Source: Phycisphaeraceae bacterium (lineage in GTDB: Bacteria > Planctomycetota > Phycisphaerae > Phycisphaerales > SM1A02). Taken from it: a stretch of DNA of 32,091 nucleotides. A program made the translations under genes and the position numbers. Shown in pieces: positions 11,073 through 30,135 of the stretch. The stretch covers positions 1 through 32,091 of the forward strand of contig PWVT01000195.1 in NCBI GenBank assembly GCA_003562195.1. Reading direction: 5' to 3'. The notes under the pieces are model-generated. The model was given only the letters and a program-made list of their open reading frames with translations, was not told where the DNA came from and searched no databases. Each line of letters begins with the position of its first letter. Positions within the stretch are counted from its first letter, which is position 1.

Positions 11073-12467
11073 ATGATGTGTAACGCTAGCAAGTCATCGG
11101 CCCTCGGACGTCGTCACCGTTTGGGTGGTGCGGTCGCCAGCGTCCTTCTTCTTACTGGCGGTGTTCTCGTCGGGTGTGAAGACAGCGCGGCGGAGCAACG
11201 CGTCGATGCGCAGCGAACGATCCTCGCTGCGTCGGCTGATTTCCGCAACGCCACGGTGGGAACTGTGACGGTTGAGGATGAAGAATTTGAGTCGCGTCAG
11301 CAGGAACTCAATGCCTTGATCGGTCGAGTCAGCAACCTTCCGAATGCTGATCCCGGCCAGCAGGCCGCAGGTGGCATGCTGGCGGCCGAAGCGTTGAGCG
11401 AGTTGGCCTCGATGCACCTTGCTCATGCGCAAACGATGCAACGTCAGCAACGGTTTGACCGCCGCAAGATTCAGCACGCGCTGGATGCAGCAGGCCGGCT
11501 GAGTGCACGCGCCGACGCACAGGCCGAGCTTACGACATCATCTGAACGTGCAATGCTTCAGGGCCAGCGTGATGCGGCTGAGGAATCACTCAATGAGCTG
11601 AATCGCCAGATCGGAGCACTGGAAGGGCCGATTGCAGACCGCCTTGATCGCAATGCACAAGATGTCGCTGAGGCAGACCGATTGCGAGAGGAAGCCAATG
11701 ACCTGATCCGCCTTGCCATTGAACTCGGCCATGCCAACGGTTTTCCAAGTTTTCAGCAAGCGATTGACATTCGCCGCGATGCCGATGGCATCGACTTTGA
11801 TGTTTCCCTGCGTGAGCTGGAACTTGAGTATGAGCTTCAGCCGCAGCATGAGCTTGTTGAGTTGCAAATCCACCATCTGCGAAGCGCCGTGGAGTCCATC
11901 CGCAACACGCTGGCAGAATTTGATCGACTCGATGAGCAATTGACGGGCGACCTCGATGCCACGCGTCAGCAGGTTTCAGCATTGGTACAGGAGATTTCTC
12001 GAAGCGTGGATGGGCTGAGTGATCGTGTCCGTAGCGATTTGGCTGAGCAATACGAACAGGCGGGTGAATACCTGCAACGCGCGGTCACGCAGGCACGCCA
12101 GGCCGCCGGCCGACTCAGAGGCGATCAGGCCGGGGCTGCGCGCATGCTACAGGTCAAGGTGAGTGAGTCGCTGGGCAGCGCGCTGAAGAGCCAGGCAGCA
12201 GCCATGGGCGACCATGCTGACCTCCTCACGCAATTGATCGAGGTAGGGGCGGGCCTGCTCCCGGATCTTGAGACCTATCGATCGATTCGTGATGAACTCA
12301 ACGAGACACGGCAGCGGCTCACAGCCGAAGCGCGAGAAGCATTTGCCGAAGCTCAATCAGCATTAGGCGGTGTCAGCGGTAGCGCAGCCGATGCGTACCG
12401 CAGTCACCTTGAGCGTGTCACCGGGAACGAGAGTGCCACTGAAGGTATCATGAACACCGATCTGTAA
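11073..12467 (+). CDS. Coiled-coil lipoprotein of unknown function
   Basis: Signal peptide with lipobox-like LLLTGGVLVGCED followed by long Glu/Gln/Ala/Arg-rich heptad-like sequence. Confidence 0.75.
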   Translation: MMCNASKSSALGRRHRLGGAVASVLLLTGGVLVGCEDSAAEQRVDAQRTILAASADFRNATVGTVTVEDEEFESRQQELNALIGRVSNLPNADPGQQAAGGMLAAEALSELASMHLAHAQTMQRQQRFDRRKIQHALDAAGRLSARADAQAELTTSSERAMLQGQRDAAEESLNELNRQIGALEGPIADRLDRNAQDVAEADRLREEANDLIRLAIELGHANGFPSFQQAIDIRRDADGIDFDVSLRELELEYELQPQHELVELQIHHLRSAVESIRNTLAEFDRLDEQLTGDLDATRQQVSALVQEISRSVDGLSDRVRSDLAEQYEQAGEYLQRAVTQARQAAGRLRGDQAGAARMLQVKVSESLGSALKSQAAAMGDHADLLTQLIEVGAGLLPDLETYRSIRDELNETRQRLTAEAREAFAEAQSALGGVSGSAADAYRSHLERVTGNESATEGIMNTDL

Positions 12468-12475
12468 CGCTTGGC

Positions 12476-12500
12476 CACCACAACGATGTAGGTTGTGGTG
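12476..12500. terminator. Stem-loop downstream of the lipoprotein gene, possible terminator
   Basis: CACCACAAC-GATGTAG-GTTGTGGTG, perfect 9-bp stem, starts 8 bp after the stop codon; no clear T-tract. Confidence 0.45.
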
Positions 12501-12590
12501 CGCGATCTGAACTTGAGGTGTTAGGATTGTGCTTTCCACATTGGCGATCGGCCGATGTTGTGAATCGAATGAATCGCCCATCGCCTGCAC

Positions 12591-13649
12591 ATGATGAACA
12601 CTCAACCGCCACCGACTGAACAGTACGCGTCGAACGCAAGTTACGCTGACCTTGCATCGCGCTTGAACAGTGCCAAACGCATTGCATTGGTGTCGCATTA
12701 CAAGGCCGATGGCGACTCCATCGGCTCGATGCTTGCCTTGGCCCGCGCAATGCAGGCCCAAGGCAAAGAGGCGTTGGTCACGCTGACAGGCCCGGTTGAT
12801 GAAAAGCTGCTCATGCTTGTTGGTGAAACGCCATATGTACGCATTGATTCAGTGGATGATGCTCCGGAGGATGACGTTTTCGATCTCATTGTTCTTGTGG
12901 ATACCGGGGCATGGTCGCAGTTGGAACTTGTCGAAACTTGGCTCCGCCGTAACCGCGATCGTGTCATTGGCATCGACCATCACGCACACGGAGATGATGT
13001 CGCATTGGACCGCGTGGTTGATGCAAATTGTGCTGCGACGGCACAGATGATCGTGCAATTGCTGGATGTTATGAACATCACGATTACCGGTGGAATCGAG
13101 AGTATCGGCGAAGCACTGTTTCTCGGCTTGGCCACCGCTACTGGATGGTTCCGGCACTCCAATGCTGGTGCGGAGGTGTTCTCGGTAGCGGCACGTTTGC
13201 TGGACGCTGGCGTGGACAAGATTCGACTGCATCAGATCATTGAAGAGTCACATCGGCCGCAGCGCCTTTCACTGGAAGCACGCGCCCTCGCTTCATTGAC
13301 ATATGCTGCTGACCAAACTGTCGCCATCATGTCACTGGAATTGAAGGATTTTACCGAGACCGGAGGGCTGGTTGAGGATCTCACTGGCATGGTCAATTTG
13401 CCATTAGTCGTGCAACGCACGCAGGTGTCTATTCTCCTCGCTCAGTCCGAGCAAACGCGCACGAAAGCCAGTTTCCGTTCAAAATCGTCAATCAATCCGC
13501 TTGATCCGGATGAGTTTGTCGATGTCAACGAGCTGGCGCGGCGATTCGGTGGTGGCGGGCATGTCCATGCGGCTGGGGCAAAGTTCGATATGGATGTCGC
13601 TGAAGCTCGCAAGCTCATTCTCCAGGTTCTGGAGCAGCAATCAGCGTGA
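12591..13649 (+). CDS. nrnA: DHH/DHHA1 family phosphoesterase (NrnA-like oligoribonuclease / pAp phosphatase)
   Basis: IALVSHYKADGDSIGSMLAL, VDTGAWSQL, GIDHHAHGDD and C-terminal GGGGHVHAAGAKF motifs; start at 12591 or 12594. Confidence 0.88.
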   Translation: MMNTQPPPTEQYASNASYADLASRLNSAKRIALVSHYKADGDSIGSMLALARAMQAQGKEALVTLTGPVDEKLLMLVGETPYVRIDSVDDAPEDDVFDLIVLVDTGAWSQLELVETWLRRNRDRVIGIDHHAHGDDVALDRVVDANCAATAQMIVQLLDVMNITITGGIESIGEALFLGLATATGWFRHSNAGAEVFSVAARLLDAGVDKIRLHQIIEESHRPQRLSLEARALASLTYAADQTVAIMSLELKDFTETGGLVEDLTGMVNLPLVVQRTQVSILLAQSEQTRTKASFRSKSSINPLDPDEFVDVNELARRFGGGGHVHAAGAKFDMDVAEARKLILQVLEQQSA

Positions 13650-13664
13650 GGCCTCCAAAAAGGA

Positions 13665-14429
13665 TTACTCCGCCCGCTCGCCCACCCTCAGCAAGCTGCG
13701 TGGTTCAATGGTGAAACCAAACTCGGCAAACGGGCCGATCAGTCGTGGACTGTCAAACGCACCTGCTTCGTGGCGTTCCGGGTTGACCTGCACGGCTGGA
13801 ATCAGCGTGCCGCGAAGCACCAGGATCGTTGTCTCCGTCTGTTCACGCATTGCTTCGTAACGACGGGCCACGCTGCGCGGCAAGGTGAGATCAAACGGGT
13901 CCCCAAGCTCAGCGTGCGATTCTGGATCAATAGCCGTCAGACGAAGGTCGTATCCGGTGCGCGTCTGATGCTCACGGTCCACACGAACGTGCCACTGGAT
14001 CGGAGAGCGATATTTCCTTGCTGCTGCGGCTTGCCAACGCGTCAATTGGCGCATGTAGAGGTTCCGTTCACGGCTGTCGGCACTGCCGATCTCCTGGTCG
14101 CCTAATGTCTCAGCGTAATCCTGTGAAAGGGCTCGCCGGAGTGCACGTGGGCTTGCAGAGGGCACTGATTCATCAATCGTGACTTCGGGTTCGTCGTCAT
14201 CACGTTGTCGCTCTCCATGAGCAGCGGCCAGTGCACGCTCTAACTCTGCGATGCGTGATTGAGCTGCTTCAAGTTCCCGGACTTTCTCTTCAAGTTCGGC
14301 TCGAAGTCGTTGGTTCTCTCGACGCAATTCGTCAATATTCTGGGCGGCAGCGTGTGGAGCGATCAGGCCGAGTTGCATCACCGCAAAAATGAGCATAATC
14401 GGCAATCGGCAGGTCATGGAAGGGGTCAT
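13665..14429 (-). CDS. Secreted protein with N-terminal coiled coil, unknown function
   Basis: Signal peptide MTPSMTCRLPIMLIFAVMQLGLIAPHAAAQ followed by NIDELRRENQRLRAELEEKVRELEAAQSRIAELERAL; start set at 14429. Confidence 0.7.
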   Translation of the reverse strand: MTPSMTCRLPIMLIFAVMQLGLIAPHAAAQNIDELRRENQRLRAELEEKVRELEAAQSRIAELERALAAAHGERQRDDDEPEVTIDESVPSASPRALRRALSQDYAETLGDQEIGSADSRERNLYMRQLTRWQAAAARKYRSPIQWHVRVDREHQTRTGYDLRLTAIDPESHAELGDPFDLTLPRSVARRYEAMREQTETTILVLRGTLIPAVQVNPERHEAGAFDSPRLIGPFAEFGFTIEPRSLLRVGERAE

Positions 14430-14653
14430 GGTAAACTCGCTTTCTTGTGAGACTCGCGGGCGCGGCGAATGATGATTCTCTTCCGGGCTGTGCAGGTCAG
14501 CCATATACAAATGGCCTTAAATCTGCGGCTGTCGCACTGAATTGACGACATTTTAGCTTTATGCGGTAATTTCCTTCGCTTGAAACAGTTTAATCATATC
14601 ATCAGGACATTGCCGTCGTGTCCCTGCGCGCCGGGGCGTACCTGCAGGAGGTC

Positions 14654-16330
14654 ATGCGTATGAACGAGATTCGCGCGTTACTGAAAATTGCTGCTCGTCG
14701 GCTGGAGGCGAGTATCATGCTCGCCAAGGCACATACCGTCGGCATTGTGCTGGCGGCTGTTGGCTTGAGTTTGATCATTGCAGACCGACTGCCTGCAACG
14801 CCATTTGTCCCATGGCAATGGGTGTTTCCCACCATGTTGGTCGTCGGTGGCATTGCAGCGTTCGCGATGTGGCTGCGATCTCGACCGAGCGAACACCACG
14901 TTGCACTCTTGGTCGATGAACGATTGGACCTTCGCGAAAAAATCTCGACCGCGCTGCACGTGGGCAACCGTGACGACGCATTCGCTCGCGCAGCGGTGGA
15001 AGATGCTGTGGCGGTGGCCACCGATCCAAAGAGCCACGAGCGTGCACGACGACGATTCAACGTGACGCCTCCGACGAATTGGTGGATCGCGCCGATGTTG
15101 ATTGCAGTGGCGGTACTCATTTCCTTCATTGAGCCGATGGACGTCTTTGCACGCGAACAACCAGAGTCGCAGGAGGTGATTCAAGCCCGGCATGAAGTCA
15201 GCGAAACGCTTGATGCAGTCATGCGCGAGATTGAATCCCAGCCGCAATTGAGCGGTGAGTTGGCTGATCTTCTCGGTGACCTGGGTGATCTCAGCCCCGA
15301 CCGAGACACGCTGAAGTCGCCTGATGACATACGCCGGGATGCCATCAAACGCGTGACTGATCTGAATGAACGTCTTGAGGAGATTGTCAGTGGCGAGCGT
15401 GGCAAAACAATGGATGCCATCGACCAAGCCATGAAACAGATGCGCGTCCCTGAAGACGGCCCGGCAAAGGAATTGGCGGAAGCTATGGCACAAGGAGACT
15501 TCCAGGCAGCGAGTGAGGCACTCAAAGAGCTCATTGAGAAGGTCGAAGCTGGTGAACTCACCGCCGAGCAGCAGGAGCAGCTTGTCGAGCAGCTCAAGGA
15601 CCTCGCCAAGCAACTCGAAGATATGGCTCGTCAACAGCAGCAGCTTGAAGATGCACTGCGCAAAGCGGGCATGGATCCGCAGCTCGCGCAGAATCCCGAG
15701 GCGCTCAAGCAGGCAATCGAGAACAATCAGAATCTCAATGAACAGCAACGCCAGCAATTGCAGCAAGTGGCGCAGGCGCAGCAGGCATCGAGTGAAATGT
15801 GTCAAGGCCTTGGCGCTGCTGCAATGGCGCTCGCCCAGGCCCTTGAATCAGGGCAGATGGGTGATGCAGCAGGGCAGATGTCCGACCAACTCAGTGAGCT
15901 TGAGCAACTGCAGATGCTTCTGCAACAGGCCCAAGCCGCTGCGAGCATGTGCCAGGGGACGTGTCAGGGGTTGGGCCGTGGCCTTGGCTTGCAGGCGGCC
16001 ATGCAACAATGGGGGCAGGGCATGGGCGCTGGTGGTGCGGGCGGGCCGAGGCCGACTGCACCATCACCAACGCGAACGCGCGAAGTCCGTGCCGAAGGAC
16101 AGACCGGTGAAGGCGACATTATCGCTCGCATGCTCGTGGATGGTCCGCAGACCGTTGGTGAATCCCGCATTGTTCCAAGCCAGGTTCTCGCTGAAGTCGT
16201 CGAAGGGTTTGAAGAAGGCATTGATGAAGATCAATTGCCACGCAAGTATCATGAAGCACAGAAGCGATATTTCGGTGAATTGGAACGTCAGGTTCGTGAA
16301 GCAGAAGCGCAGACGCAGCAGGAAGAATGA
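14654..16330 (+). CDS. Membrane-anchored Gln-rich coiled-coil protein (DUF4175-like organisation, uncertain)
   Basis: Two to three N-terminal TM segments, long E/Q-rich coiled coil, C-terminal IDEDQLPRKYHEAQKRYFGELERQV; ATGA overlap with the next gene. Confidence 0.65.
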   Translation: MRMNEIRALLKIAARRLEASIMLAKAHTVGIVLAAVGLSLIIADRLPATPFVPWQWVFPTMLVVGGIAAFAMWLRSRPSEHHVALLVDERLDLREKISTALHVGNRDDAFARAAVEDAVAVATDPKSHERARRRFNVTPPTNWWIAPMLIAVAVLISFIEPMDVFAREQPESQEVIQARHEVSETLDAVMREIESQPQLSGELADLLGDLGDLSPDRDTLKSPDDIRRDAIKRVTDLNERLEEIVSGERGKTMDAIDQAMKQMRVPEDGPAKELAEAMAQGDFQAASEALKELIEKVEAGELTAEQQEQLVEQLKDLAKQLEDMARQQQQLEDALRKAGMDPQLAQNPEALKQAIENNQNLNEQQRQQLQQVAQAQQASSEMCQGLGAAAMALAQALESGQMGDAAGQMSDQLSELEQLQMLLQQAQAAASMCQGTCQGLGRGLGLQAAMQQWGQGMGAGGAGGPRPTAPSPTRTREVRAEGQTGEGDIIARMLVDGPQTVGESRIVPSQVLAEVVEGFEEGIDEDQLPRKYHEAQKRYFGELERQVREAEAQTQQEE

Positions 16331-17388
16331 AGCAACAGTCGATGTACCGTGTATGCGGCTTTGTCCGCTTTCTGGTCGTGGCGCTTCTCGCCACGGTGGT
16401 TTCTTTTGGGTGCGGGCGATCGGATCGGCCGGAAGTCGTGCTGTACGTCTCCGCCGATGAATACGTCGCGCGAGAAGTGGTGGCGGCGTTCGAGCAGGAA
16501 ACCGGCATCCGTGTTCGCTTTGTTGGCGATACCGAGGCCAAGAAAACCACCGGCTTGGTCGAACGCCTGATGGCTGAAAAAGACAATCCTCAGGCAGATG
16601 TCTTCTGGTCTTCGGAAGTCTTCTTTACCATTGATTTGGCCAATGCAGACGTACTTGAACCGTATCACTCGGCGGCGACTTCAGATTGGCCGAGAACGTT
16701 TCGATGTCCCGAGGACCGTTGGTACGGTTTTGCCGCCCGAGGCAGAGTGATTGTGTATGCTCCCGATCGCGTTGATGAGAAGGACATCCCAAAAACGTGG
16801 ATGGACCTCACCAATGACTACTACCATGGGCGCATCGTCATGGCAGACCCGCGCTTCGGCACGACGGGCGGACATCTTGGTGCAATGAAAGCGTATTGGG
16901 ACCGTGCCTATCAGCCCGGTATTTTCGAAGCATTCGTGTTGGGCCTTGCTGCCAACGAAGTGCGCATGCTGACGAGCGGGAACGCCGGTGTGGTTCGAGC
17001 GGTGGCGGGCGGTGAAGCCGACCTGGGGATGACCGACACCGATGATGTCTGGGCAGCGCAGGCCCAGGGCATGATTGTAGAGATGGCGTTCCCACGACAC
17101 AGCCGGGATGATATCGAAGGCTCTGGCACGCTTTTGATTCCCAATACTGTCGGTCGTGTTGCTGGTGGACCAAACCCGGACCACGCCACTGTCCTGATTG
17201 ACTTCCTGCTGTCCGAACGCGTTGAGCGCATTCTGGCGGAAACAGTGTCCGGCAATGTGCCATTGCGTCCCGGGCTGGCATCGGAGTATGAACACCTCCA
17301 GGTTCCTGATCCGCTGCAGGTTGACTTTCATAGGGCCGCAGCCCTGCGCGTCGCGGCTGTTGAGGAAACGATGAACGCACTGCGGTAA
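16327..17388 (+). CDS. ABC transporter solute-binding lipoprotein, Fe(III)-type family
   Basis: Lipoprotein signal ending VVSFGCG; VVLYVSADEYVAREVVAAFEQETGIRVRFVGDTEAKKTTGLVERLMAEKDNPQADVFWSSE is characteristic of iron-type periplasmic binding proteins. Confidence 0.87.
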   Translation: MKQQSMYRVCGFVRFLVVALLATVVSFGCGRSDRPEVVLYVSADEYVAREVVAAFEQETGIRVRFVGDTEAKKTTGLVERLMAEKDNPQADVFWSSEVFFTIDLANADVLEPYHSAATSDWPRTFRCPEDRWYGFAARGRVIVYAPDRVDEKDIPKTWMDLTNDYYHGRIVMADPRFGTTGGHLGAMKAYWDRAYQPGIFEAFVLGLAANEVRMLTSGNAGVVRAVAGGEADLGMTDTDDVWAAQAQGMIVEMAFPRHSRDDIEGSGTLLIPNTVGRVAGGPNPDHATVLIDFLLSERVERILAETVSGNVPLRPGLASEYEHLQVPDPLQVDFHRAAALRVAAVEETMNALR

Positions 17389-17442
17389 CGTCGGGCTTCA
17401 CGATGCACGGAGTCAACACGCTGGCGATTGTGCGGAACCATC

Positions 17443-19950
17443 ATGCGAGGTAGCGCGTGGTCTATGCCGGTCCTGGCCATGGCGCTCTGGTTGTGCGCGA
17501 TTGGCTGGCCGATGGTTGCTGCAATTGAGACTGTGTCACGCCAGCACACAAGCGGAATCGAAATGCGCGGCTCTGGGGAACTGTTGCTGGTCAGCGGGGC
17601 ATGGGGTATGGGCGCTGCGATCGGTGCGATGCTACTTGGATGGGGGCCTGGTCGTTGGCTTGGCTCGGCTCTTGCACGCAAAGGATTTGTCCCACTGGCA
17701 GCAGTAATGCTGGTGCCCATCTGCCTGCCGGCGTACGTCATCTTCTTTGCGTGGTGGCAGGCATGGCCGGCTGGTTCGTGGCTGTACCATTGGGCCGTGG
17801 CGAATCAGCAAGTACAGTTGGTTCGCCATTGCACGTTGCTCCTTGGTTTTCTCTGCTGGTCATGGCCGGTGGTGGCGCTGTGTGTGGCGGGATCTGTTGC
17901 GAGCACGCCCGCTCAGCGCTCTGAATTGCTCCGCCTCGATGGTGCGACTTGGTGGCGGCGCCTGGTTGATCGGTTTCGCTGCGATTGGCGTGGCCTGATC
18001 ATCGGCGGGCTGATCGTCTTTCTTGCGACGTTCAACAACACAACGAGCTTTGACCTGGCGGAAGTCTTTACCTTTGGCAATGAGCTTCGTGCAATTGAAG
18101 CGCTTGGCGCGACCAACCGTGATGTCCTTGCCGCTGCACTTCCGGCAACGGGATTGACTATCTTGGGTGCAGCGGCAATCTGGGTGTTGCTCAGTTGGCG
18201 GCCGCATGATCTCGCGACACGAACTGTTGCTGCAGCACCGCTGACAAAGGTTGCGACAATCGCACTCTGGTTCGTTTCCGTCGCGTTTCCGCTGGCACTG
18301 TTAGCGAGAAATGTTCGTACAGGTGCTGGCGGAAGAACATTCGGGGAACAGGTGCGCGAGTTCAACTTGTTTTATCTACAGGGACTGATGAACACGATCG
18401 GTGTGGCGTTGGCGTGCGCATCGCTGTCGGTGCTCGTGGCAATCGGCTTGGCATGGATGTGGCAGGATCGGCGTGGGTGGGTGCGCTGTATCGCGCATGT
18501 GCAAGCCGTGGGATGGATCGTCGCTGCTGCGCTGCCCGGCACCATGCTCGGGGTGGCGATGCGGGCAGCGTACAATCGTGGTCAGCTAGCCGAACTGGTG
18601 TACAACCAGCCGGCGGTGCTTGTGTTCGGTCACCTTGCGAGCTTTGCGTTTCTCGGTGCACTGCTTGGCCGGTGGGTCGCCATGCGTGAGCCGCAGTCGC
18701 TGCAGGACCTTCGCAGTATTGATGGAGCAGATCGGCTCATCGGGATCATGCGGACCACATGGCCGCGACTTCTTGCAGCTGGAGGCGCAACATTTGCGAT
18801 CGTCTTCGTGTTATCACTCAGCGAGATTCCAGTAACAGCAGCAGTCAGGCCAGCCGGATTTGATGCCATTACCTCGAGCATTCTCAACGACATGCACTTT
18901 CAGCGACCACAGACGGTGATGATTGCGACCGGCATTTTCCTCTCGCTCGCAACCATTGCTGCGATCATCACTGCGCTGGTTTGGGCCATGGTGGGCCGCA
19001 TGAACATACGCGAAGGCACGCGCGGTGTGATGACATTTGGTCTTGTGAGTGTGATCGTCGTGACAATATTCGGCTGTGGCGGAATTGATCCTGAAAATGC
19101 GCCGCCGCTGCGAAGTGAATATATATTCGGATCGCCTGGACGCGGTTTGGGGCAGTTCAGCTATCCGCGAGCGTTAGCGCTGGATTACGAACACGAGTTT
19201 CTGTACGTCGTTGACATGTCCGCACGCATTCAACGCTTTGATCTGCAAGGCAACCCCCAGTTTGCCTGGCAGATGCCCGAATGGGAACTCGGCAAACCTA
19301 CGGGCATCACGGTGGATGACAACGGCATCGTCTATCTTGCCGACACGCATTACTTTCGTGTGATGGCGTTTGATTCGGAGGGGCATGAAGTGCTGCGTTT
19401 CGGCCGGTTCGGCCAGGGACCGGGTGAGTTCATGTATACCACTGGCGTCGCAATCGGACCGGAAGGCCGCATTTACGTCTCCGAATCAGGTGGCAACGAT
19501 CGTGTGCAGGTGTTTGATGCGCAAGGCAACTACCTGTTTCATTTCGGCAGCTTCGGAGCAGGACGCAATCAGTTCAACCGACCGCAGTCGCTGGCATTCA
19601 GCCATGACCTCAGCGAGTTGTACATTGTCGATGCGTGCAACCATCGCATAGTCGTGACTGATCCTGAAGGCCACGTCCTGCGGCTGCTCGGCCAGGCGGG
19701 TGTGGGAGCGGGGGAGTTTTCCTATCCATATGACGTGGCGGTCCTGCCTGATGGGACGCTGATGGTGTGTGAGTTTCACAATTGTCGAATCCAGCATCTT
19801 ACACCTAAAGGCAAACCGCTCAGGGTGTACGGCCGTGTTGGGCGTGCAAAGGGCGAACTGCAGTATCCATGGGGCGTGGCAGGACATGCCCGCCACGTTT
19901 ACGTGCTTGATTCGGGCAACAACCGCGTGCAAGTGATCCGCACGCCCTAG
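17443..19950 (+). CDS. Two-module ABC permease (FbpB/iron-type) fused in frame to a C-terminal NHL-repeat beta-propeller
   Basis: About 530 aa of polytopic sequence with two EAA-like loops (ELLRLDGATWWRRLVDRF; QSLQDLRSIDGADRLIGIMRTTWPRLLAAG) followed by about six NHL repeats (e.g. GQGPGEFMYTTGVAIGPEGRIYVSESGGNDRVQVFDAQG); single uninterrupted ORF, start 17428 or 17443. Confidence 0.85.
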   Translation: MRGSAWSMPVLAMALWLCAIGWPMVAAIETVSRQHTSGIEMRGSGELLLVSGAWGMGAAIGAMLLGWGPGRWLGSALARKGFVPLAAVMLVPICLPAYVIFFAWWQAWPAGSWLYHWAVANQQVQLVRHCTLLLGFLCWSWPVVALCVAGSVASTPAQRSELLRLDGATWWRRLVDRFRCDWRGLIIGGLIVFLATFNNTTSFDLAEVFTFGNELRAIEALGATNRDVLAAALPATGLTILGAAAIWVLLSWRPHDLATRTVAAAPLTKVATIALWFVSVAFPLALLARNVRTGAGGRTFGEQVREFNLFYLQGLMNTIGVALACASLSVLVAIGLAWMWQDRRGWVRCIAHVQAVGWIVAAALPGTMLGVAMRAAYNRGQLAELVYNQPAVLVFGHLASFAFLGALLGRWVAMREPQSLQDLRSIDGADRLIGIMRTTWPRLLAAGGATFAIVFVLSLSEIPVTAAVRPAGFDAITSSILNDMHFQRPQTVMIATGIFLSLATIAAIITALVWAMVGRMNIREGTRGVMTFGLVSVIVVTIFGCGGIDPENAPPLRSEYIFGSPGRGLGQFSYPRALALDYEHEFLYVVDMSARIQRFDLQGNPQFAWQMPEWELGKPTGITVDDNGIVYLADTHYFRVMAFDSEGHEVLRFGRFGQGPGEFMYTTGVAIGPEGRIYVSESGGNDRVQVFDAQGNYLFHFGSFGAGRNQFNRPQSLAFSHDLSELYIVDACNHRIVVTDPEGHVLRLLGQAGVGAGEFSYPYDVAVLPDGTLMVCEFHNCRIQHLTPKGKPLRVYGRVGRAKGELQYPWGVAGHARHVYVLDSGNNRVQVIRTP

Positions 19951-20067
19951 TAGCACAATGTGTTATCAACAGACCGAGTGATCGTTTTGGTAGATTGCAT
20001 CGTTACAATGCATACGCAGTGCTCCGGCTGAGGGGTCTCACCCGGAGATGCGCTGCAGGGAGCATTC

Positions 20068-23058
20068 ATGTTCGTGGACTTTCCACTTCAATTCGAGCAT
20101 CCTGCATGGCTTGCTTTGCTGCTGCTCATTCTCCCGGTCTACCTCATCGCACGGCGGAGTATCGGTGCAGTCTCGCGCACCAAGGCGACGCTCACGTTCG
20201 CGCTGCGCGTCATCGTGATTCTGCTGCTCACTACGGCCCTGTCTAACCCGACGTGGGAACGAACTGGTGAAGGTCTGACAGTCACAATTGTGCTGGACCG
20301 CAGTTACTCCATTCCATTGCCGCTCATGGAAAGTTCACTGAACTTTCTGCGCGATGCAGCAGCAGAGCGGACGAACGATGCTGACCGCGTTTCCTCAATC
20401 ACGCTCGGTAAGGACGCTCAGATTACCGCCACGCCGGATCGGTTTTCCATCGTCAACACCGGCCTGGATGAGCCGGATCGCACTGCTACGAATCTCGCAG
20501 CGGGAATACGCCTGGCCATGGCCATCATGCCTGACGATACGGCGAACCGCATCGTGCTTGCGTCCGATGGCAACGAGACCGTAGATTCGGTGCTGGCTGC
20601 AGCCGAAATGGCGCGGGCCAACAATGTGCCGATTGATGTGCTGGTACTGGAATATGAACACGCCAACGAAGTGATCTTCGAGCGAATCGCTGCACCGGCG
20701 CGGGCGAGGTTGGGTCAGTCGATCAATCTCCGAATGGTGCTTCGCAGTCAAAGCGAAGCCCGCGGCACTGTTCATCTGCGCATGAACGGCGAGCCGTTGG
20801 ATCTTGATCCATCGTCGCCGAGCACCGGGCTGGCAGTCGAGTTGGATCCGGGCGTGCACGTGATTCCCGTGACCTTGCGCCTTGACGATCCAGGGCCATC
20901 GCAATTTGAAGCGGTCTTTGATCCTGCCACGCCCGATGATGACACAATCCATCAGAACAACCGAGCATTGGCGGTGACGTTCGTGAGCGGCGAAGGACGC
21001 GTGCTTGTACTGGATGAGGGTACAACGGAGTCGGAACTGTTGGTGCGTGCACTAACCACCGCGGATATCGCGGTGGATCGTCGTACGCCGGAAGCGCTCG
21101 CTGGTGGATTGGTGTTTCTCAGCGGCTACGACGCTGTGGTGCTGGCCAACATACCGCGATGGTCAGTGGACGATTCGCAGGATCGCATGCTCTACGCGTA
21201 TGTGCATGACCTTGGCGGTGGCCTGGTGATGCTCGGGGGGCCGCAATCATTCGGTGCCGGTGGCTGGATCGAATCCCGTACCGCCGATGCGCTGCCTGTG
21301 CGAATGGACCCGCCGCAAACGCGGCAGATGCCGCGCGGTGCGTTGGCGCTGATCATGCACTCCTGTGAAATGCCGCAGGGCAATTACTGGAGCCAGGAGG
21401 TGGCCCGCGCAGCCATCAATGCGTTGTCACGAATGGACTACGTTGGCATTGTCGAGTGGAACTGGGCTGTGCGCGAGAACTCCGGCGCAACCTGGGCGTT
21501 CCCGATGCAACTGGCCGGCGACAAACAGGCCGCGTTGGCGGCCACGCGGCAGTTGGTTGTGGGTGACACCAAAGACTTCGGTCCGCTGATGCAGCTTGCC
21601 TACAACGGCCTGACTGGCGTCAATGCAGGTCAACGCCATGCCATCATCATCAGCGACGGCGACCCGTCTCCGCCATCGGCAGCACTGCTCCAGGACTACA
21701 TCGATGCAAAAATCACCGTCACTACGGTGATGGTGATCGGTCACGGCAATGCACTGGATCGGGCCCGTATGCAGATGATCGCCAACCAAACCGGCGGGCG
21801 GTTTTATCACGTGCTCAATCCCACACAGTTGCCTCAGATTTTTATCAAGGAATCGCAACTTGTGTCGCGATCGCTGATTCAGGAAGGCGAGTACCAGCCG
21901 CAGGTCGTCAGTCTTCTGCCGGGGCCGACGGATGGATTTGCCGCCGTACCGGGGATCAACGGATATGTACTCACAGCCATGCGTGAAGGATTGACGCAAA
22001 CACCCATCGTTCATCGCACAACCGAAGGTGATGATCCGATCTATGCTCATTGGAATTACGGCTTGGGGCGTTCGATTGCATACACCTCCGATCTCATCGG
22101 CCGGTGGGGTAGTCAATGGGCGTCGTGGGACCATTTTCAGGCGTTTTGGGCGCAGTCTGTTCGCTGGGCCATGCGACCAAGTGCGCCCACCAACATGTCA
22201 GTCAACACTCGTACCGACGGTGATGAGACCATTGTTGAAATCGAAGCCATGGATCAGGATGCAGCGTTCCTCAACTTTCTGGAAACCCGTGCAGTAGTTC
22301 TGCGTCCGGACAACACGGCTGATCCCTTGCCATTGCAGCAGGTCGGTCCGGGCCGATATCGCGGCACTTTTCGCACCGAGGAAGCAGGCGCGTATCTTGT
22401 CAATGTGAACTACAAGACGCCTGGTGCCGATGATGCCAAAGGACAAGGAAATCTGCAGGCAGCGGTAACTGTGCCGTATTCGCGCGAGTTTCGCGATGTC
22501 ACTCACAACGCAGCGTTGATGCGGCAACTCGCTGAGATGACCGGCGGCCGGGTGCTCAGCGGGACCGACCCCTCGATGGTTGATCTGTTTTACCGTGGAG
22601 ACTTGATCGTCCCGCGCAGCGCCAAGCACATCTGGGATCTGCTGGCCATCATCGCAGCCGGCCTGTTCCTGCTTGATGTGGCTGCGCGTCGGCTGGCCGT
22701 GGACTCCAAATGGATGCGTGCAACATTTGGATGGGCGGTCGGCAAGCGGGGCGAATCGCGCGGGGAGACTGTTTCGGCATGGAAGCGGGCACGCGAGCAA
22801 GTGGCTCATCGCAAGGAGGGGGTGTCGCAGCAAGACATGCGCGAGCGACGATCGACACGATTCGAGGCGGATGAGGCCGACGCCCAGCATGCGATTGATG
22901 TCAGTGGTGAAGGTCCCGCAGAGAAGAAGACTGCATCAGACTCATCCACACCCACACCGAAGCCGGCGCAATCTGATGACAAGGATGATGGTGATTACAC
23001 ATCGCGGCTGCTTGCCGCCAAACGGCGTGCTCGCAAGCCGGGTGAGGAGCAATCATGA
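20068..23058 (+). CDS. Membrane protein with vWA modules and a glutamine amidotransferase-like domain
   Basis: N-terminal TM helices (HPAWLALLLLILPVYLIARR), vWA with DRSYS MIDAS, GATase-like region (VLVLDEGTTESELLVRAL...LGGGLVMLGGPQSFGAGGW), second vWA-like region (VGIVEWNW...HAIIISDGDPSPP), C-terminal TM helix. Confidence 0.85.
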   Translation: MFVDFPLQFEHPAWLALLLLILPVYLIARRSIGAVSRTKATLTFALRVIVILLLTTALSNPTWERTGEGLTVTIVLDRSYSIPLPLMESSLNFLRDAAAERTNDADRVSSITLGKDAQITATPDRFSIVNTGLDEPDRTATNLAAGIRLAMAIMPDDTANRIVLASDGNETVDSVLAAAEMARANNVPIDVLVLEYEHANEVIFERIAAPARARLGQSINLRMVLRSQSEARGTVHLRMNGEPLDLDPSSPSTGLAVELDPGVHVIPVTLRLDDPGPSQFEAVFDPATPDDDTIHQNNRALAVTFVSGEGRVLVLDEGTTESELLVRALTTADIAVDRRTPEALAGGLVFLSGYDAVVLANIPRWSVDDSQDRMLYAYVHDLGGGLVMLGGPQSFGAGGWIESRTADALPVRMDPPQTRQMPRGALALIMHSCEMPQGNYWSQEVARAAINALSRMDYVGIVEWNWAVRENSGATWAFPMQLAGDKQAALAATRQLVVGDTKDFGPLMQLAYNGLTGVNAGQRHAIIISDGDPSPPSAALLQDYIDAKITVTTVMVIGHGNALDRARMQMIANQTGGRFYHVLNPTQLPQIFIKESQLVSRSLIQEGEYQPQVVSLLPGPTDGFAAVPGINGYVLTAMREGLTQTPIVHRTTEGDDPIYAHWNYGLGRSIAYTSDLIGRWGSQWASWDHFQAFWAQSVRWAMRPSAPTNMSVNTRTDGDETIVEIEAMDQDAAFLNFLETRAVVLRPDNTADPLPLQQVGPGRYRGTFRTEEAGAYLVNVNYKTPGADDAKGQGNLQAAVTVPYSREFRDVTHNAALMRQLAEMTGGRVLSGTDPSMVDLFYRGDLIVPRSAKHIWDLLAIIAAGLFLLDVAARRLAVDSKWMRATFGWAVGKRGESRGETVSAWKRAREQVAHRKEGVSQQDMRERRSTRFEADEADAQHAIDVSGEGPAEKKTASDSSTPTPKPAQSDDKDDGDYTSRLLAAKRRARKPGEEQS

Positions 23059-24158
23059 CGGTGCACGCCTCATCTGGAGTGGACCGCGTGGCCAATCTTC
23101 CGGCACTTGATCTGGCATTTGACGATGTGCAGGCCGTCCGCCGGGCATGTGGCGAGTTTTGCGAGGTGTATCAGCAACTTCGCGACGAGGTTGGCAAGGT
23201 GATTGTTGGTCAGGAGGAGATCGTTGAACAGACGTTGATCGCGTTATTTGCCAATGGCCACGTGCTGTTGGAAGGTGTGCCTGGCCTAGGGAAGACGCTG
23301 CTCGTCAGCACGCTCGGCAAAGCGTTGACACTGCCATTTGCACGAATCCAGTTCACGCCCGACCTCATGCCGGCGGATATATGCGGAACGAGCATCGTGC
23401 TCGAGAACCCGAACACCGGCGTGCGTGAATTCTCGTTTAAGCCGGGTCCAATCTTTCATCAACTGATTCTCGCCGACGAAATCAACCGCGCTACACCGAA
23501 GAGTCAGTCGGCATTGTTGGAGGCGATGCAGGAGCGGTCGGTGACGATTGCTGGCCAGACGCGGACACTCGCGTTGCCGTTTTTCGTGATGGCGACGCAG
23601 AACCCGGTTGAGCAGGAGGGCACGTATCCGCTGCCCGAGGCCCAGCTTGACCGTTTCCTGTTCAAGATCGTTGTGCCCTATGCGAACCGGGAGGAGATGT
23701 TTACCATCCTCAGCCGCACGACGCGAAACGAAGTCGCGGCTGTGTCTCCGATGATCGACGGTTCTTACATCATGGCCGCGCAGCAACTTGCACGGCGCAT
23801 TGTCGTAGCACCGCATGTGCAGGACTATGTCGTGCGGTTGATCCTCGCGACGCATCCCGGCAGTGCCCACGCTAGCGAAGCAATCAGCAAGTACATCCAC
23901 CTCGGTGTGAGTCCGCGGGGAGCGCAAGCCTTGATTTCCGCAGCGAAAATCAAGGCGCTGATCGACGGCCGATATGCTGTGAGCTTTCGTGATCTTCATG
24001 ACATTGCCTTCGCTGCGTTGCGTCATCGCATTGCATTGAGCTTTGAGGCAGAATCAGATGGCGTGACCGGTGATGATGTCATCCAGCGATTGATCGACTT
24101 CGTCCCGCGTGAATATCCGTCAACGAACAGCACCGATGGACAATGGGGCAAGGAATGA
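23055..24158 (+). CDS. MoxR family AAA+ ATPase
   Basis: VGQEEIVEQTLIALFANGHVLLEGVPGLGKTLLVSTLG (Walker A), ILADEINRATPKSQSALLEAMQE (Walker B), FVMATQNPVEQEGTYPLPEAQLDRFLFK; ATGA overlap with the preceding gene. Confidence 0.95.
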   Translation: MTVHASSGVDRVANLPALDLAFDDVQAVRRACGEFCEVYQQLRDEVGKVIVGQEEIVEQTLIALFANGHVLLEGVPGLGKTLLVSTLGKALTLPFARIQFTPDLMPADICGTSIVLENPNTGVREFSFKPGPIFHQLILADEINRATPKSQSALLEAMQERSVTIAGQTRTLALPFFVMATQNPVEQEGTYPLPEAQLDRFLFKIVVPYANREEMFTILSRTTRNEVAAVSPMIDGSYIMAAQQLARRIVVAPHVQDYVVRLILATHPGSAHASEAISKYIHLGVSPRGAQALISAAKIKALIDGRYAVSFRDLHDIAFAALRHRIALSFEAESDGVTGDDVIQRLIDFVPREYPSTNSTDGQWGKE

Positions 24159-24243
24159 TCCACACCATGGTTCGCAAACTTCTGAAAACGTCCTAGCATG
24201 TGCACGTCGACTTCTTGAATACTCTGAATCTCTGACCGTTCAT

Positions 24244-25173
24244 ATGGCATCCTTCGGCACAACAACCACACCCAAACCCAAGCGAGTCGATGAATTGATC
24301 GACAGCAAACTGATGGCCAAGCTCGATCAGGTGGATGTCATGTCGCGCAAGATTTTTTCCGGCAAGCTTCAGGGCGAACGGCGCAGCAAGAAACGCGGCA
24401 TGAGTGTTGAGTTCGCGGATTACCGTCATTACGTCCACGGTGATGATCTGCGATTCGTGGATTGGAACATTTATGCACGGCTGGACAAGCTGTTCATCAA
24501 GATGTTCCTCGAAGAAGAAGATCTCTCGCTCATCATCGCTCTGGACACCAGTTCGTCCATGGACTGGGGCAACCCGAATAAACTCGTGTTCTGCCAGAGA
24601 CTGGCGATGGCGCTTGGGTACATCGGGCTGGTCAATCACAATCGCGTTTCACTGTACGCCTTCAGCGATGGCGGCCTGCGCCCATTGCCCAACCTTCGCG
24701 GCATGCGGCGAACGCAGGAAATGGGCTCGTGGCTGCTCAATCAGCAAACCGGTGGTGCAAGCAATTTTGATGACGCCATGCGCGGTATCGCGCTGACTCG
24801 TCAGGGCAAGGGCGTGATGGTGGTGCTGTCGGACTTTCTCTATAAGGAGGGGTATGAGAAGGGGTTGCGTTATCTCTCCGGCGGCGGATATGACACCTTC
24901 TGCATGCAGGTACTTGCGCCTGAGGAGATTGACCCCGGCAAGGCGGGCCTCTCTGGTGACTTGCGGCTGACGGACATTGAAGACGATGACGTTGCGGAAG
25001 TGACCGTCAGTGCCGGACTCTTACGTCGCTACAAAGAGAATCTTGATGCGTATTGTGGGAAGCTACGCGAGTTTTGCGTCCGTCGCGGCATGATGCATCT
25101 GACGATCGACACCGCGACCGACCTCAACGTGTTGCTCTTGGACTACCTGCGCAAACGGGGCTTGCTCCGATGA
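24244..25173 (+). CDS. DUF58 domain (vWA-like) protein
   Basis: RRSKKRGMSVEFADYRHYVHGDDLRFVDWNIYARLDKLFIKMFLEEEDLSLIIALDTSSSM; start at MASFGTTTTPKPK. Confidence 0.93.
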   Translation: MASFGTTTTPKPKRVDELIDSKLMAKLDQVDVMSRKIFSGKLQGERRSKKRGMSVEFADYRHYVHGDDLRFVDWNIYARLDKLFIKMFLEEEDLSLIIALDTSSSMDWGNPNKLVFCQRLAMALGYIGLVNHNRVSLYAFSDGGLRPLPNLRGMRRTQEMGSWLLNQQTGGASNFDDAMRGIALTRQGKGVMVVLSDFLYKEGYEKGLRYLSGGGYDTFCMQVLAPEEIDPGKAGLSGDLRLTDIEDDDVAEVTVSAGLLRRYKENLDAYCGKLREFCVRRGMMHLTIDTATDLNVLLLDYLRKRGLLR

Positions 25174-27167
25174 CGTGGGTGTCGCCGCTGACGGGGCTGA
25201 TCCTTGCCGCCGCGGTGATCCCGCCGTTGATCCTTCTGTATTTCCTCAAGCTACGAAGGCGCACACAGCCAATCGCATGCACATTGCTCTGGAAGAAATC
25301 GATTGAAGATCTCCAGGCCAATGCGCCGTTTCAGAAGTTGCGCCGCAACATCCTCTTGCTGCTGCAACTGTTGGCGTTGATCCTCCTCATACTCTCAGTG
25401 ATGCAGCCACAGGTGCAGGCCGGGCAGCAGACAGGCGGCAAGACGGTCATCATTATTGATAACTCCGCCTCCATGAGCGCCACGGACGGGCCGGACGGTA
25501 TGACGCGGTTGGAACAGGCCAAGCAGCTTGCCAAGCAGCGTGTTGAAGCGATGTATCGAGGCGGCTTGTTCTCCAGATCGCCGGGTGAAACGATGGTGAT
25601 TGCCTTTTCTGATCGCGCGGAGATTTACAGCCGCTTCTCCAGTGCGCGACAACAACTTCTCGCGGCGATCGACCGCATCCAACCCACGCATGGCGAAACA
25701 CGCATTGCTGAAGCGCTCCAATTGTCGAGGGCGTACACCACTAACGTCGTGGACATCATGGGCGAGGCACGGCCGACCGGGGAACCGGCACACATTGAAC
25801 TCTTCAGCGACGGCAACATCACCGATCTTGACGATCAGGTGCTGCGACCGGGTGAATCCATGACGTTTCACGCCCTCGGCACGGATGATGCTGACAACGT
25901 CGCCATCAATGCCATTTCTGTCGAACGGCCGTTTGACCGACCGACTGCGGTGGCGGTGTTCGTGTCGTTGCTCAATTTCAATCAGCGAGAAGTGCGATGC
26001 GATGTGCAACTTTCTGTTGATGGCACGGCACGCGGCATTCGGGAAGTACAGATTCAGCCGGCACGCCTCGATCCCGCTACCGGTGAACTGTTGCCCGGAC
26101 GAAACAATGTCGCATTCGCTCCGTTTGAACAACCGCGCGGCGCGGTGATCGAAGTTGCCAACCTGCGGCAGGATGCTCTGATGGCAGACAACGTCGCGCA
26201 ACTGGTTGTCCCGCCGCCGAGGCAACTCAATGTTGCATTGGTGCGATCGAATTATCGCATCCTCGAAGCTGCATTGGATCCAGAAGGTATGCGATTGCAA
26301 CGGTTGGATGTGATCACACTGGAGCGTTTTGAGGAGTTAGCAGCAGAGAACGCGCTCGACCAGTATGACGTTGTTGTGTTTGACAACCGCGCTCCGACCT
26401 CGCTACCGCCTGGACGGTATCTCTCCTTTGGTGCGACTCCGCCCGTTGAAGGTCTCAATGAATACGGTCAAGGTGGCACGCAATTGATTCTGACGACAAG
26501 GCATGAACATCCGGTCATGCAGAATGTCATGCTGGATGATCTTCGCATTGCGGAAATGACGTTGCTGCAACCGGGTGATGATGTGCAGGTGCTGGTCGAA
26601 GCGACTGGTGGGCCGGCAATGATTGCTGTTTCTCGCGGCTCATTCCACCTGATTCACGTGACCTTCGATCCGCTCGCAAGCAGTTGGCCATTCAAGCGAA
26701 GCTTCATCAATTTCATCTACAACGCCATCGAGCATCTGGGTCACATCGGCGAGGCAGTTACAAGTGAAGGGCTGCGGCCCGGTGAGGTCCTGACCGCACG
26801 ACTGCCCGCTTCGGCGCAGGACATCGAATTGCTCACACCGGATGGCACAACCCATCGCCTCACACCAGCCGATCCTTCACAGTTGAGCTGGGGACCGCTT
26901 CGCCTGTCCGGTCCGCACCTGCTTCGTTGGACCGAGCCGGGTGTGACCGGCTCACGTCGCCAATCGCGTGCGTATGCAGTCAACCTGCTCAGCGAGACAG
27001 AAGGAAATCTCGCTGTGGCGGAGAGCATTGACATCGGGCAGGATTCGGTGACAGGTACGCGTGCTGACGCCTCCACACACACGCCCTTGTGGCCGTGGGC
27101 CATTGCCTTGTGCCTGGGGCTGTTGATGGTGGAATGGTGGGTGTACCACCGCAAAGCGTATTTTTGA
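25170..27167 (+). CDS. BatA-like N-terminal domain / vWA membrane protein
   Basis: MTWVSPLTGLILAAAVIPPLILLYFLKLRRRTQPIACTLLWKKSIEDLQANAPFQKLRRN; MIDAS IIIDNSASM; C-terminal TM; ATGA overlap with the DUF58 gene. Confidence 0.9.
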   Translation: MTWVSPLTGLILAAAVIPPLILLYFLKLRRRTQPIACTLLWKKSIEDLQANAPFQKLRRNILLLLQLLALILLILSVMQPQVQAGQQTGGKTVIIIDNSASMSATDGPDGMTRLEQAKQLAKQRVEAMYRGGLFSRSPGETMVIAFSDRAEIYSRFSSARQQLLAAIDRIQPTHGETRIAEALQLSRAYTTNVVDIMGEARPTGEPAHIELFSDGNITDLDDQVLRPGESMTFHALGTDDADNVAINAISVERPFDRPTAVAVFVSLLNFNQREVRCDVQLSVDGTARGIREVQIQPARLDPATGELLPGRNNVAFAPFEQPRGAVIEVANLRQDALMADNVAQLVVPPPRQLNVALVRSNYRILEAALDPEGMRLQRLDVITLERFEELAAENALDQYDVVVFDNRAPTSLPPGRYLSFGATPPVEGLNEYGQGGTQLILTTRHEHPVMQNVMLDDLRIAEMTLLQPGDDVQVLVEATGGPAMIAVSRGSFHLIHVTFDPLASSWPFKRSFINFIYNAIEHLGHIGEAVTSEGLRPGEVLTARLPASAQDIELLTPDGTTHRLTPADPSQLSWGPLRLSGPHLLRWTEPGVTGSRRQSRAYAVNLLSETEGNLAVAESIDIGQDSVTGTRADASTHTPLWPWAIALCLGLLMVEWWVYHRKAYF

Positions 27168-27289: not shown

Positions 27290-27790
27290 GTGTTTTCCCT
27301 GACGCGTAAGACTGACTACGCCCTCGTCGCATTGACTGCGATGGTCCATGAGCGTCATCTGGTCAGTGCGCGGGGCTTGGCAGATCGGCTGAACCTGCCG
27401 CTGCCGGTGCTTCGAAACATCCTGAAGCATCTCACGCAAGTCGGCCTGATCAACTCCACGCGAGGGCAGCAGGGGGGCTACCAACTGGCCCGTACAGCGG
27501 AGGAAATCTCCCTCGTTGACCTGATCGAAGCGATGGAAGGACCGCTGCGATTGACGATGTGCTGCCGCCCATCGGGCGACCCTGATCGCGACAAGTGCGA
27601 TCTGGAAGGGTCATGCATGATCAAGCGACCGGTGCAGCGCGTGCACGCACTGATGCAGCAGTTTCTCAGCCGCATCAGTCTGGCCCAACTCGCACACGAC
27701 GAGGTGCCTCGGGAGGTGCAGGTGCTTGTCGGGGGCGATGTGTGCCAGTGCCAGTCTCATACGAACGGATCTACCACGACGAAAGACTAA
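27290..27790 (+). CDS. Rrf2 family transcriptional regulator, SUF-associated
   Basis: FSLTRKTDYALVALTAM...VSARGLADRLNLPLPVLRNILKHLTQVGLINSTRGQQGGYQLARTAEEISLVDLIEAMEGP and a Cys cluster MCC...CDLEGSC; GTG start; immediately upstream of sufB. Confidence 0.92.
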   Translation: MFSLTRKTDYALVALTAMVHERHLVSARGLADRLNLPLPVLRNILKHLTQVGLINSTRGQQGGYQLARTAEEISLVDLIEAMEGPLRLTMCCRPSGDPDRDKCDLEGSCMIKRPVQRVHALMQQFLSRISLAQLAHDEVPREVQVLVGGDVCQCQSHTNGSTTTKD

Positions 27791-27814
27791 TCGAACTCTT
27801 GTGAATTTCGCCTT

Positions 27815-29263
27815 ATGACTACAGCAACAGAACAAACCATCAACGAATTCACTGGCAAGGGCTACAAGCACGGATTCGTTACCGAGATTGAGTCCGACTC
27901 GCTCCCACCCGGATTGAACGAAGACGTCATCCGCTTCATCTCCGAAAAGAAGAAGGAGCCGGACTGGATGCTCGAGTGGCGTCTGAAGGCCTATCGCGAC
28001 TGGCTGGAAATGGAAATGCCCGACTGGCAGAATGTGAACTTTCACCCCATCGATTTCCAGAAGATCATCTACTACTCAGCTCCGAAGAAGAAGCCCCAAC
28101 TCGACAGTCTTGATGAGGTCGATCCGGAACTGCTGCGCACCTACGAAAAGCTCGGCATCCCGCTGGAAGAACAAAAGATGCTCACGGGCGTTGCTGTCGA
28201 TGCGGTCTTTGACAGCGTATCGGTTGCGACCACGTTCAAGGAAAAGCTTGCCGAAGCGGGCGTGATCTTCTGCCCCATGTCTGAAGCGCTGCAGAAGCAC
28301 CCTGACCTCGTCAAGAAGTACATCGGCAGCGTCGTCCCGACCAATGACAACTATTTCGCAGCATTGAACTCGGCTGTGTTCTCCGATGGCTCGTTCGTGT
28401 ACATCCCCAAGGGCGTGACGTGCCCGATGGAACTGTCCACGTACTTCCGCATCAACGCGATGAACACCGGCCAGTTTGAGCGCACGCTCATCATTGCAGC
28501 GGAAGGCGCATCGGTCAGTTACCTTGAGGGCTGCACCGCCCCGATGCGTGATGAAAACCAGCTTCACGCAGCAGTCGTGGAACTCGTCGCGCTCGACGAT
28601 GCGCACATCAAGTATTCCACCATCCAGAACTGGTATCCCGGCGATGAGAACGGCAAGGGCGGCATCTACAACTTCGTCACCAAGCGTGGCGATTGCCGCG
28701 GCGATCGTTCGCACATCTCCTGGACGCAGGTTGAAACCGGTTCTGCCGTCACTTGGAAGTACCCAAGCTGCGTACTCAAGGGCGATGACTCCATCGGCGA
28801 GTTCTACAGCGTCGCGCTGACCAACAACCGACAGCAGGCCGACACCGGCACGAAGATGATTCACATCGGCAAGAACACGCGGAGCTACATCGTCTCCAAG
28901 GGCATCTCTGCCGGGTTCTCAGACAACACCTATCGCGGCCAGGTGAAGGTGCTCAAGAACGCATCCAACGCTCGCAACTACACCCAGTGCGATTCACTGC
29001 TGATGGGCGACAAGTGCGGCGCGCATACCTTCCCTTACATCGAGGTCGGCAACTCCACCAGCCAGGTCGAGCACGAAGCCACGACCTCGAAGATCGGCGA
29101 AGATCAAATCTTCTACTGCACGCAGCGCGGTATCTCCGAAGAGGATGCCGTCTCACTCATCGTCAACGGCTTCTGCAAGGAAGTGCTCAAAGAACTGCCT
29201 ATGGAGTTCGCTGTTGAAGCTGACAAGCTCCTGGCGATCTCGCTTGAAGGCAGCGTGGGCTAA
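27815..29263 (+). CDS. sufB: Fe-S cluster assembly protein SufB
   Basis: [90 protein letters not shown]. Confidence 0.97.
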
Positions 29264-29319
29264 GCCGCACGTGGCGATATTCGAAATAACACTGACAACT
29301 GCAAACTGACGACAGACCA

Positions 29320-30093
29320 ATGACCACACCACTCATCGAAATCAAGAACCTGCACGCAAACATCGACGGCCAGGAAATCCTCCGCGGCCTTGATCTCACC
29401 ATCAATCCCGGCGAAGTGCATTCGATCATGGGGCCAAATGGCTCTGGCAAGAGCACGCTCGCTCAAGTGCTCGCCGGCCGTGATGCATTTGAAGTCACCG
29501 AGGGCGAGATCATCTACGAAGGCAAGGATCTGCTCGACATGGACCCGGATGAACGCGCCTGCGAAGGCGTCTTTCTGGCGTTCCAGTACCCCGTTGAGAT
29601 TCCCGGCGTGCGCACCACGCAGTTTCTCAAGGCCGCGATCAACGCCGTGCGCAAGCATCGCGGCGAAGATGAGATCGACGCTCTTGACGCGGTCAAGCTC
29701 TTCCGCGAAAAGATGAAGCTCGTTGACATGGATGAATCGCTGCTCAAGCGTGCGGTCAACGAGGGCTTCTCCGGCGGTGAGAAGAAGCGCCATGAAATCT
29801 TCCAGATGGCGGTCCTCGAGCCGAAGCTCTGCATCCTTGATGAAACCGACTCCGGCCTGGATATCGACGCGCTGCGCATCGTTGCGGACGGCGTGAACGC
29901 CATGCGGTCGAAAGACCGTTCGTTCCTGCTCATCACCCACTATCAGCGTCTACTCGATTACATTGTCCCCGATTTCGTTCACGTGCTGGTCAACGGCCGC
30001 ATCGTGCAGTCTGGCGACAAGGGACTCGCCCTGGAACTCGAGAAGAAGGGCTATAGCTGGGTCGAGAAGGAACCGGCTGCCGCCACGGCGTAA
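29320..30093 (+). CDS. sufC: Fe-S cluster assembly ATPase SufC
   Basis: [83 protein letters not shown]. Confidence 0.97.
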
Positions 30094-30135
30094 GTGAACG
30101 ATGCGCTCGATTTGAACAGCAACACCAATACACCC

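Follow-up and report, generated by a model that had tools for sequence, protein, structure and literature searches.

In teaching and in prediction, lipoprotein signals are treated as features of the N-terminus. The stretch of DNA that we analysed (the window, 32,091 nucleotides from a Phycisphaeraceae bacterium) contains a gene with what looks like a lipoprotein signal in the middle of the protein, between a transporter permease and a beta-propeller. Is this signal left over from the joining of two genes, or is it used? And if it is used, does the gene make one protein or two?

A permease and a propeller in one frame

The gene is a single unbroken frame on the forward strand (17443-19950) that starts with an ATG at 17443 and encodes 835 amino acids. 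Residues 1-519 (17443-18999) form a permease of two modules with 12 long helices, from residues 4-31 to residues 489-519. They are followed by a stretch that resembles a signal peptide (residues 520-544; 19000-19074), with a charged region (MNIREGTRG) and then a short hydrophobic helix (527-542). Next come the lipobox cysteine, Cys545 (19075-19077), a tether (19078-19113), and a propeller (residues 558-835; 19114-19947). There are in-frame ATGs near the joint at 18988, 19000, and 19030. A re-reading of the sequence agreed with the original prediction about the Cys codon and about the ATGs at 19000 and 19030. The central claim of that prediction, an in-frame fusion of a permease and an NHL protein that has a complete lipoprotein signal where the two meet, is borne out by the frame, by profile and fold matches, and by the intact lipobox.

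The AlphaFold model, which was computed from the window protein together with 69 of its relatives, has a pLDDT of 91 and a pTM of 0.90. The short helix before the cysteine spans 16 residues, is modelled with low confidence, and lies outside the permease fold. Its end and Cys545 (residues 540-548) make up the only segment with pLDDT below 50. The C-terminal part was expected to contain about six NHL repeats, and it is indeed a six-bladed NHL propeller: Pfam NHL matches within residues 558-835 (4e-28), the model places strands at 558-833, and the Foldseek matches of this half are animal NHL domains such as 6d69.

The permease had been described as a two-module, iron-type permease, and both profile and fold agree. 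A profile of the permease matches FbpB (9j4r; 1.9e-8 over residues 21-508), which is the one solved chain that this profile recovers and which is covered along its whole length, and a profile from the full-length proteins matches it at 1.8e-19. The fold of the permease also matches 9j4r_A (Foldseek E of 3.6e-13, TM-score on the target of 0.75). A profile was needed to reach 9j4r, as a phmmer search of the PDB with the permease half of the window protein alone gave no match. Also, none of 44 members matches a Pfam permease family, including BPD_transp_1, at a threshold of 0.01, and residues 1-519 of the window protein have no Pfam match of any kind. So the permease half is a divergent member, and in the absence of a match to BPD_transp_1, we classify it as FbpB-like by fold only.

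In the regions of the coupling motifs (17920-17990 and 18700-18770), the consensus retains LDGA/LDG, but EAA is not kept, and in module 1, I-x-LP is replaced by a conserved R-x-D. The operon appears to lack an ABC ATPase, as no open reading frame in the 20-kb loci has both a Walker A motif and an LSGGQ-type signature. The genomes encode many ABC ATPases, none of which could be assigned to this permease, and the TOBE_2-type ATPases (one to a few per genome) are located elsewhere. With its altered coupling motifs, the permease may rely on a shared ATPase, or it may have another role.

Fused and split genes among relatives

The original prediction asked whether relatives encode one frame or two, and the answer depends on the family. 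The same fused frame is present in most genomes from the same family, at 31-58% identity, so the fusion is not a local assembly error. The single-contig chromosomes of G032 and G009 carry it as well. A first set of 101 genomes of relatives contained 47 distinct fused frames, and all of the loci that we fetched contain 120 fused proteins and 34 separate NHL proteins. In other families of Phycisphaerae, the permease and the NHL lipoprotein are encoded by two adjacent genes, which meet through overlapping frames, across short gaps, or at one in-frame stop codon. Where there is a single stop, a new ATG lies a few codons past it. In G023 (locus L045), the two genes are about 4 kb apart with other genes between them, one of which (827 amino acids) is on the opposite strand, and the NHL protein has kept its lipobox.

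To see how often the gene has changed state, we removed near copies (keeping loci below 90% identity), which left 114 fused and 23 two-gene loci, or 137 in total. A quick tree of these implies at least nine changes between fused and split, of which seven lie on strongly supported branches; the tree does not give their direction. In the clade of the window's own family, 79 of 80 rows are fused. Elsewhere, a locus with a stop at the joint (L089) and a fused locus (L094) are supported sisters, and another fused locus (L102) groups with one that has the stop (L104). The proposal that the two genes merged by the loss of a stop codon is therefore credible as a route, since some relatives have exactly one in-frame stop at the joint (compare L089 and L094). 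But merging as a single event is too simple a description, given the number of changes. In 246 genomes drawn from across the phylum, the matches from outside the class extend over the NHL part alone, and the arrangement with a separate NHL lipoprotein is therefore probably the older one.

Two observations about individual records should be mentioned. An apparent triple fusion of permease, NHL, and VWA in L145 (5901-10962) was rejected because the record contains a run of N. Also, L153, L161, and L196 are labelled as Singulisphaera or Vicinamibacteraceae, while their genes match relatives from the Phycisphaerales; the labels are probably wrong.

The signal at the joint and the fate of the protein

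Conservation along the protein is lowest around the joint. The mean frequency of the top residue is 0.28 for residues 497-541 and 0.26 for residues 546-560, in the tether, as compared to 0.40 in the permease and 0.60 in the propeller. Within this region, the column of Cys545 is invariant in each of three alignments (47/47, 44/44, and 70/70 fused proteins), whose sets overlap. In each of the 120 fused proteins, the cysteine follows a G, S, or A. The cysteine was chosen leniently for this count (any C after G, A, or S within 72 residues), so the alignments test its conservation more strictly. The same lipobox is found in all 34 separate NHL relatives.

The rest of the signal has the expected form. 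Ahead of the stretch from the last charged residue to the cysteine, the net charge is positive in 98% of cases. The median length of this stretch is 16 residues in the fused proteins, 15 in the separate NHL proteins, and 16 in the substrate-binding lipoproteins of the same operon, so a positive n-region and a short h-region are present with the lengths seen in separate relatives and in these controls. The signal departs from that of a typical bacterial lipoprotein in its location, which is not N-terminal: some 520 residues of permease precede it within the one frame. All seven genomes that we tested encode both Lgt and LspA.

The joint had been called the remnant of a signal, and we believe that this was wrong. 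The parts of the tree that contain only fused proteins add up to about 58 changes per column, and across so much change, a cysteine that was not used would have been lost. Instead, the lipobox is intact and the cysteine is invariant in every aligned fused relative, which is what a functioning signal, rather than a relic, would show.

We propose, with a probability of roughly 0.6, that the product of the gene is a precursor: Lgt lipidates its internal signal, LspA cuts there, and a permease and an NHL lipoprotein with a membrane anchor result. The usual topology of FbpB-type permeases puts the C-terminus in the cytoplasm. With 12 long helices ahead of the short one, the permease should also end there, and the short helix should lead out. 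After the 12-helix permease is inserted, with its C-terminus in the cytoplasm, the short helix would act as a working lipoprotein signal peptide and would bring the NHL propeller to the other side of the membrane. Lgt would then add a diacylglyceryl group at Cys545, and LspA (signal peptidase II) would cleave just before this residue. This would yield equal amounts of the permease and of an NHL lipoprotein anchored in the membrane, both made at the same place. We infer the lipidation, the cutting, and the equal amounts. Cutting would account for the frequent fusion and splitting with little consequence, as well as for the unchanging lipobox. On the other hand, a lipid on an uncut chain would preserve the cysteine equally well. 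Furthermore, the loop in the model between helix 12 (which ends at 519) and helix 13 (which starts at 527) has only about eight residues, which may hinder access by Lgt and LspA. In our search of the literature, we found no case described in which LspA cuts a polytopic protein at an internal signal, and nothing direct about NHL-permease fusions or internal lipoboxes.

If the chain is not cut, then the short helix would be a 13th membrane helix, Cys545 might carry a lipid, and the propeller would be tethered to the permease on the outside. Such tethering of outside domains is known (GlnPQ, PMC8025302), and the long retention of a single frame in the family clade would fit with it. But a permanent anchor needs neither the cysteine nor the G, A, or S that precedes it, yet both are conserved; the helix has only 16 residues; and in the two-gene relatives, the lipoprotein works without a tether. 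We consider an uncut chain to be unlikely, albeit plausible enough to be taken seriously. We are more doubtful that the lipoprotein is made from an in-frame internal start, either beside the full chain or in place of it, as had also been suggested. The window gene does have its three ATGs, and 78 of the 120 fused relatives have an ATG at 13-45 codons before the cysteine. This proportion (65%) is not far above the 52% for random stretches of the permease half, however, and the positions of the starts are out of register among relatives. ATG is absent from the other 42, and four of the 120 lack ATG, GTG, and TTG alike. A Shine-Dalgarno-like motif together with a start is found in 9 of 120 fused genes, as compared to 11 of 34 separate genes. 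Across the 120 fused relatives, we did not find a conserved internal start codon at 13-45 codons before the cysteine, which means that starts inside the gene cannot account for the fused relatives in general. They may be used in individual genomes, for instance in that of the window, with its three ATGs.

As for a joint that is a functionless relic or an artefact of assembly, the genome of the window is a draft (306 contigs, 79% complete), which might raise suspicion. But dozens of independent genomes have this frame, the two on single contigs among them, and a relic would not have held its cysteine over so long a tree. We find this explanation very hard to believe.

In many Phycisphaerae, then, a transporter and a propeller with a lipoprotein signal share one gene, and the cell probably makes one chain that is cut into two proteins. 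Throughout many switches of the gene between one frame and two, the signal has been kept without exception, and processing, by undoing the fusion, would show how a fusion can be nearly neutral. The locus also allows a direct test of whether Lgt and LspA accept the internal signal of a multi-pass protein. Annotation pipelines that are restricted to N-termini would overlook such lipoproteins.

The operon and comparisons with known systems

The fused gene is part of a block with a conserved order (14618-27167 of the window), all on the forward strand. The block begins with a membrane coiled-coil protein (14618-16330) and a substrate-binding protein (16327-17388), which is a predicted lipoprotein (VSFGC) and was assigned from substrate-binding protein families, sequence, and conserved position. 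The fused gene is followed by a VWA/GATase1-like membrane protein (20068-23058), a MoxR-type AAA+ ATPase (23055-24158), a DUF58 protein (24109-25173), and a BatA-like VWA protein (25053-27167). Downstream of the operon (27290-31476) are an Rrf2-type regulator and then SUF iron-sulphur genes. In locus L046, the fused gene is separated from the VWA gene by about 3.7 kb (11141-14894) with two large, secreted-looking frames.

The propeller seems to be linked to the operon no less closely than to the permease. In L128 (1336-4687) and L132 (1973-5010), the coiled-coil gene is immediately followed by the NHL gene, which leaves no space for a permease and a binding protein. One family has the fused gene on its own (L044, L058, and L060-L062). 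A common role of NHL propellers is to act as protein-binding platforms. Because some lineages retain the NHL protein in the operon without the permease and the binding protein, we suspect that the propeller is probably such a platform for the VWA/MoxR/DUF58 membrane operon, although our case for this is weaker than for the processing.

Ternary systems of MoxR, vWA, and a beta-propeller, which are present in planctomycetes, have been described (eLife 2020, PMC7159879), and they resemble our operon in having all three in one neighbourhood. However, NHL and DUF58 are not mentioned in the text of that article, and the match of the window's MoxR to AAA_3 (6e-61) is far stronger than that to bpMoxR (1.7e-10). 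FbpB of Thermus thermophilus (9j4r) has the same permease fold across its whole length, but the window protein is only about 19% identical to it, has altered coupling motifs and a C-terminal NHL propeller, and lacks a nearby ATPase gene. ABC importers of the GlnPQ (PMC8025302) and OpuA type also have an outside domain in the same chain as the permease. In the window, by contrast, the domain that is fused to the permease is an NHL propeller and not a substrate-binding domain, the substrate-binding protein has a gene of its own, and there is a full lipobox at the joint.

The nearest precedent is FbcH of Bradyrhizobium japonicum, a polyprotein of cytochromes b and c1 that is cut into two subunits by signal peptidase I. 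As in the window, one gene encodes a polytopic protein and, after an internal signal peptide, a domain that is exported and anchored, with the likeness here being one of architecture. FbcH differs in that the cut is made by signal peptidase I and yields a haem protein, whereas the window gene has a lipoprotein-type signal and an NHL propeller. On balance, we lean towards the view that these genes form a class-wide family of polyproteins that has repeatedly switched between the one-gene and the two-gene form. The enzyme that splits the polytopic transporter from the lipoprotein, via an internal lipobox, would be signal peptidase II and not signal peptidase I.
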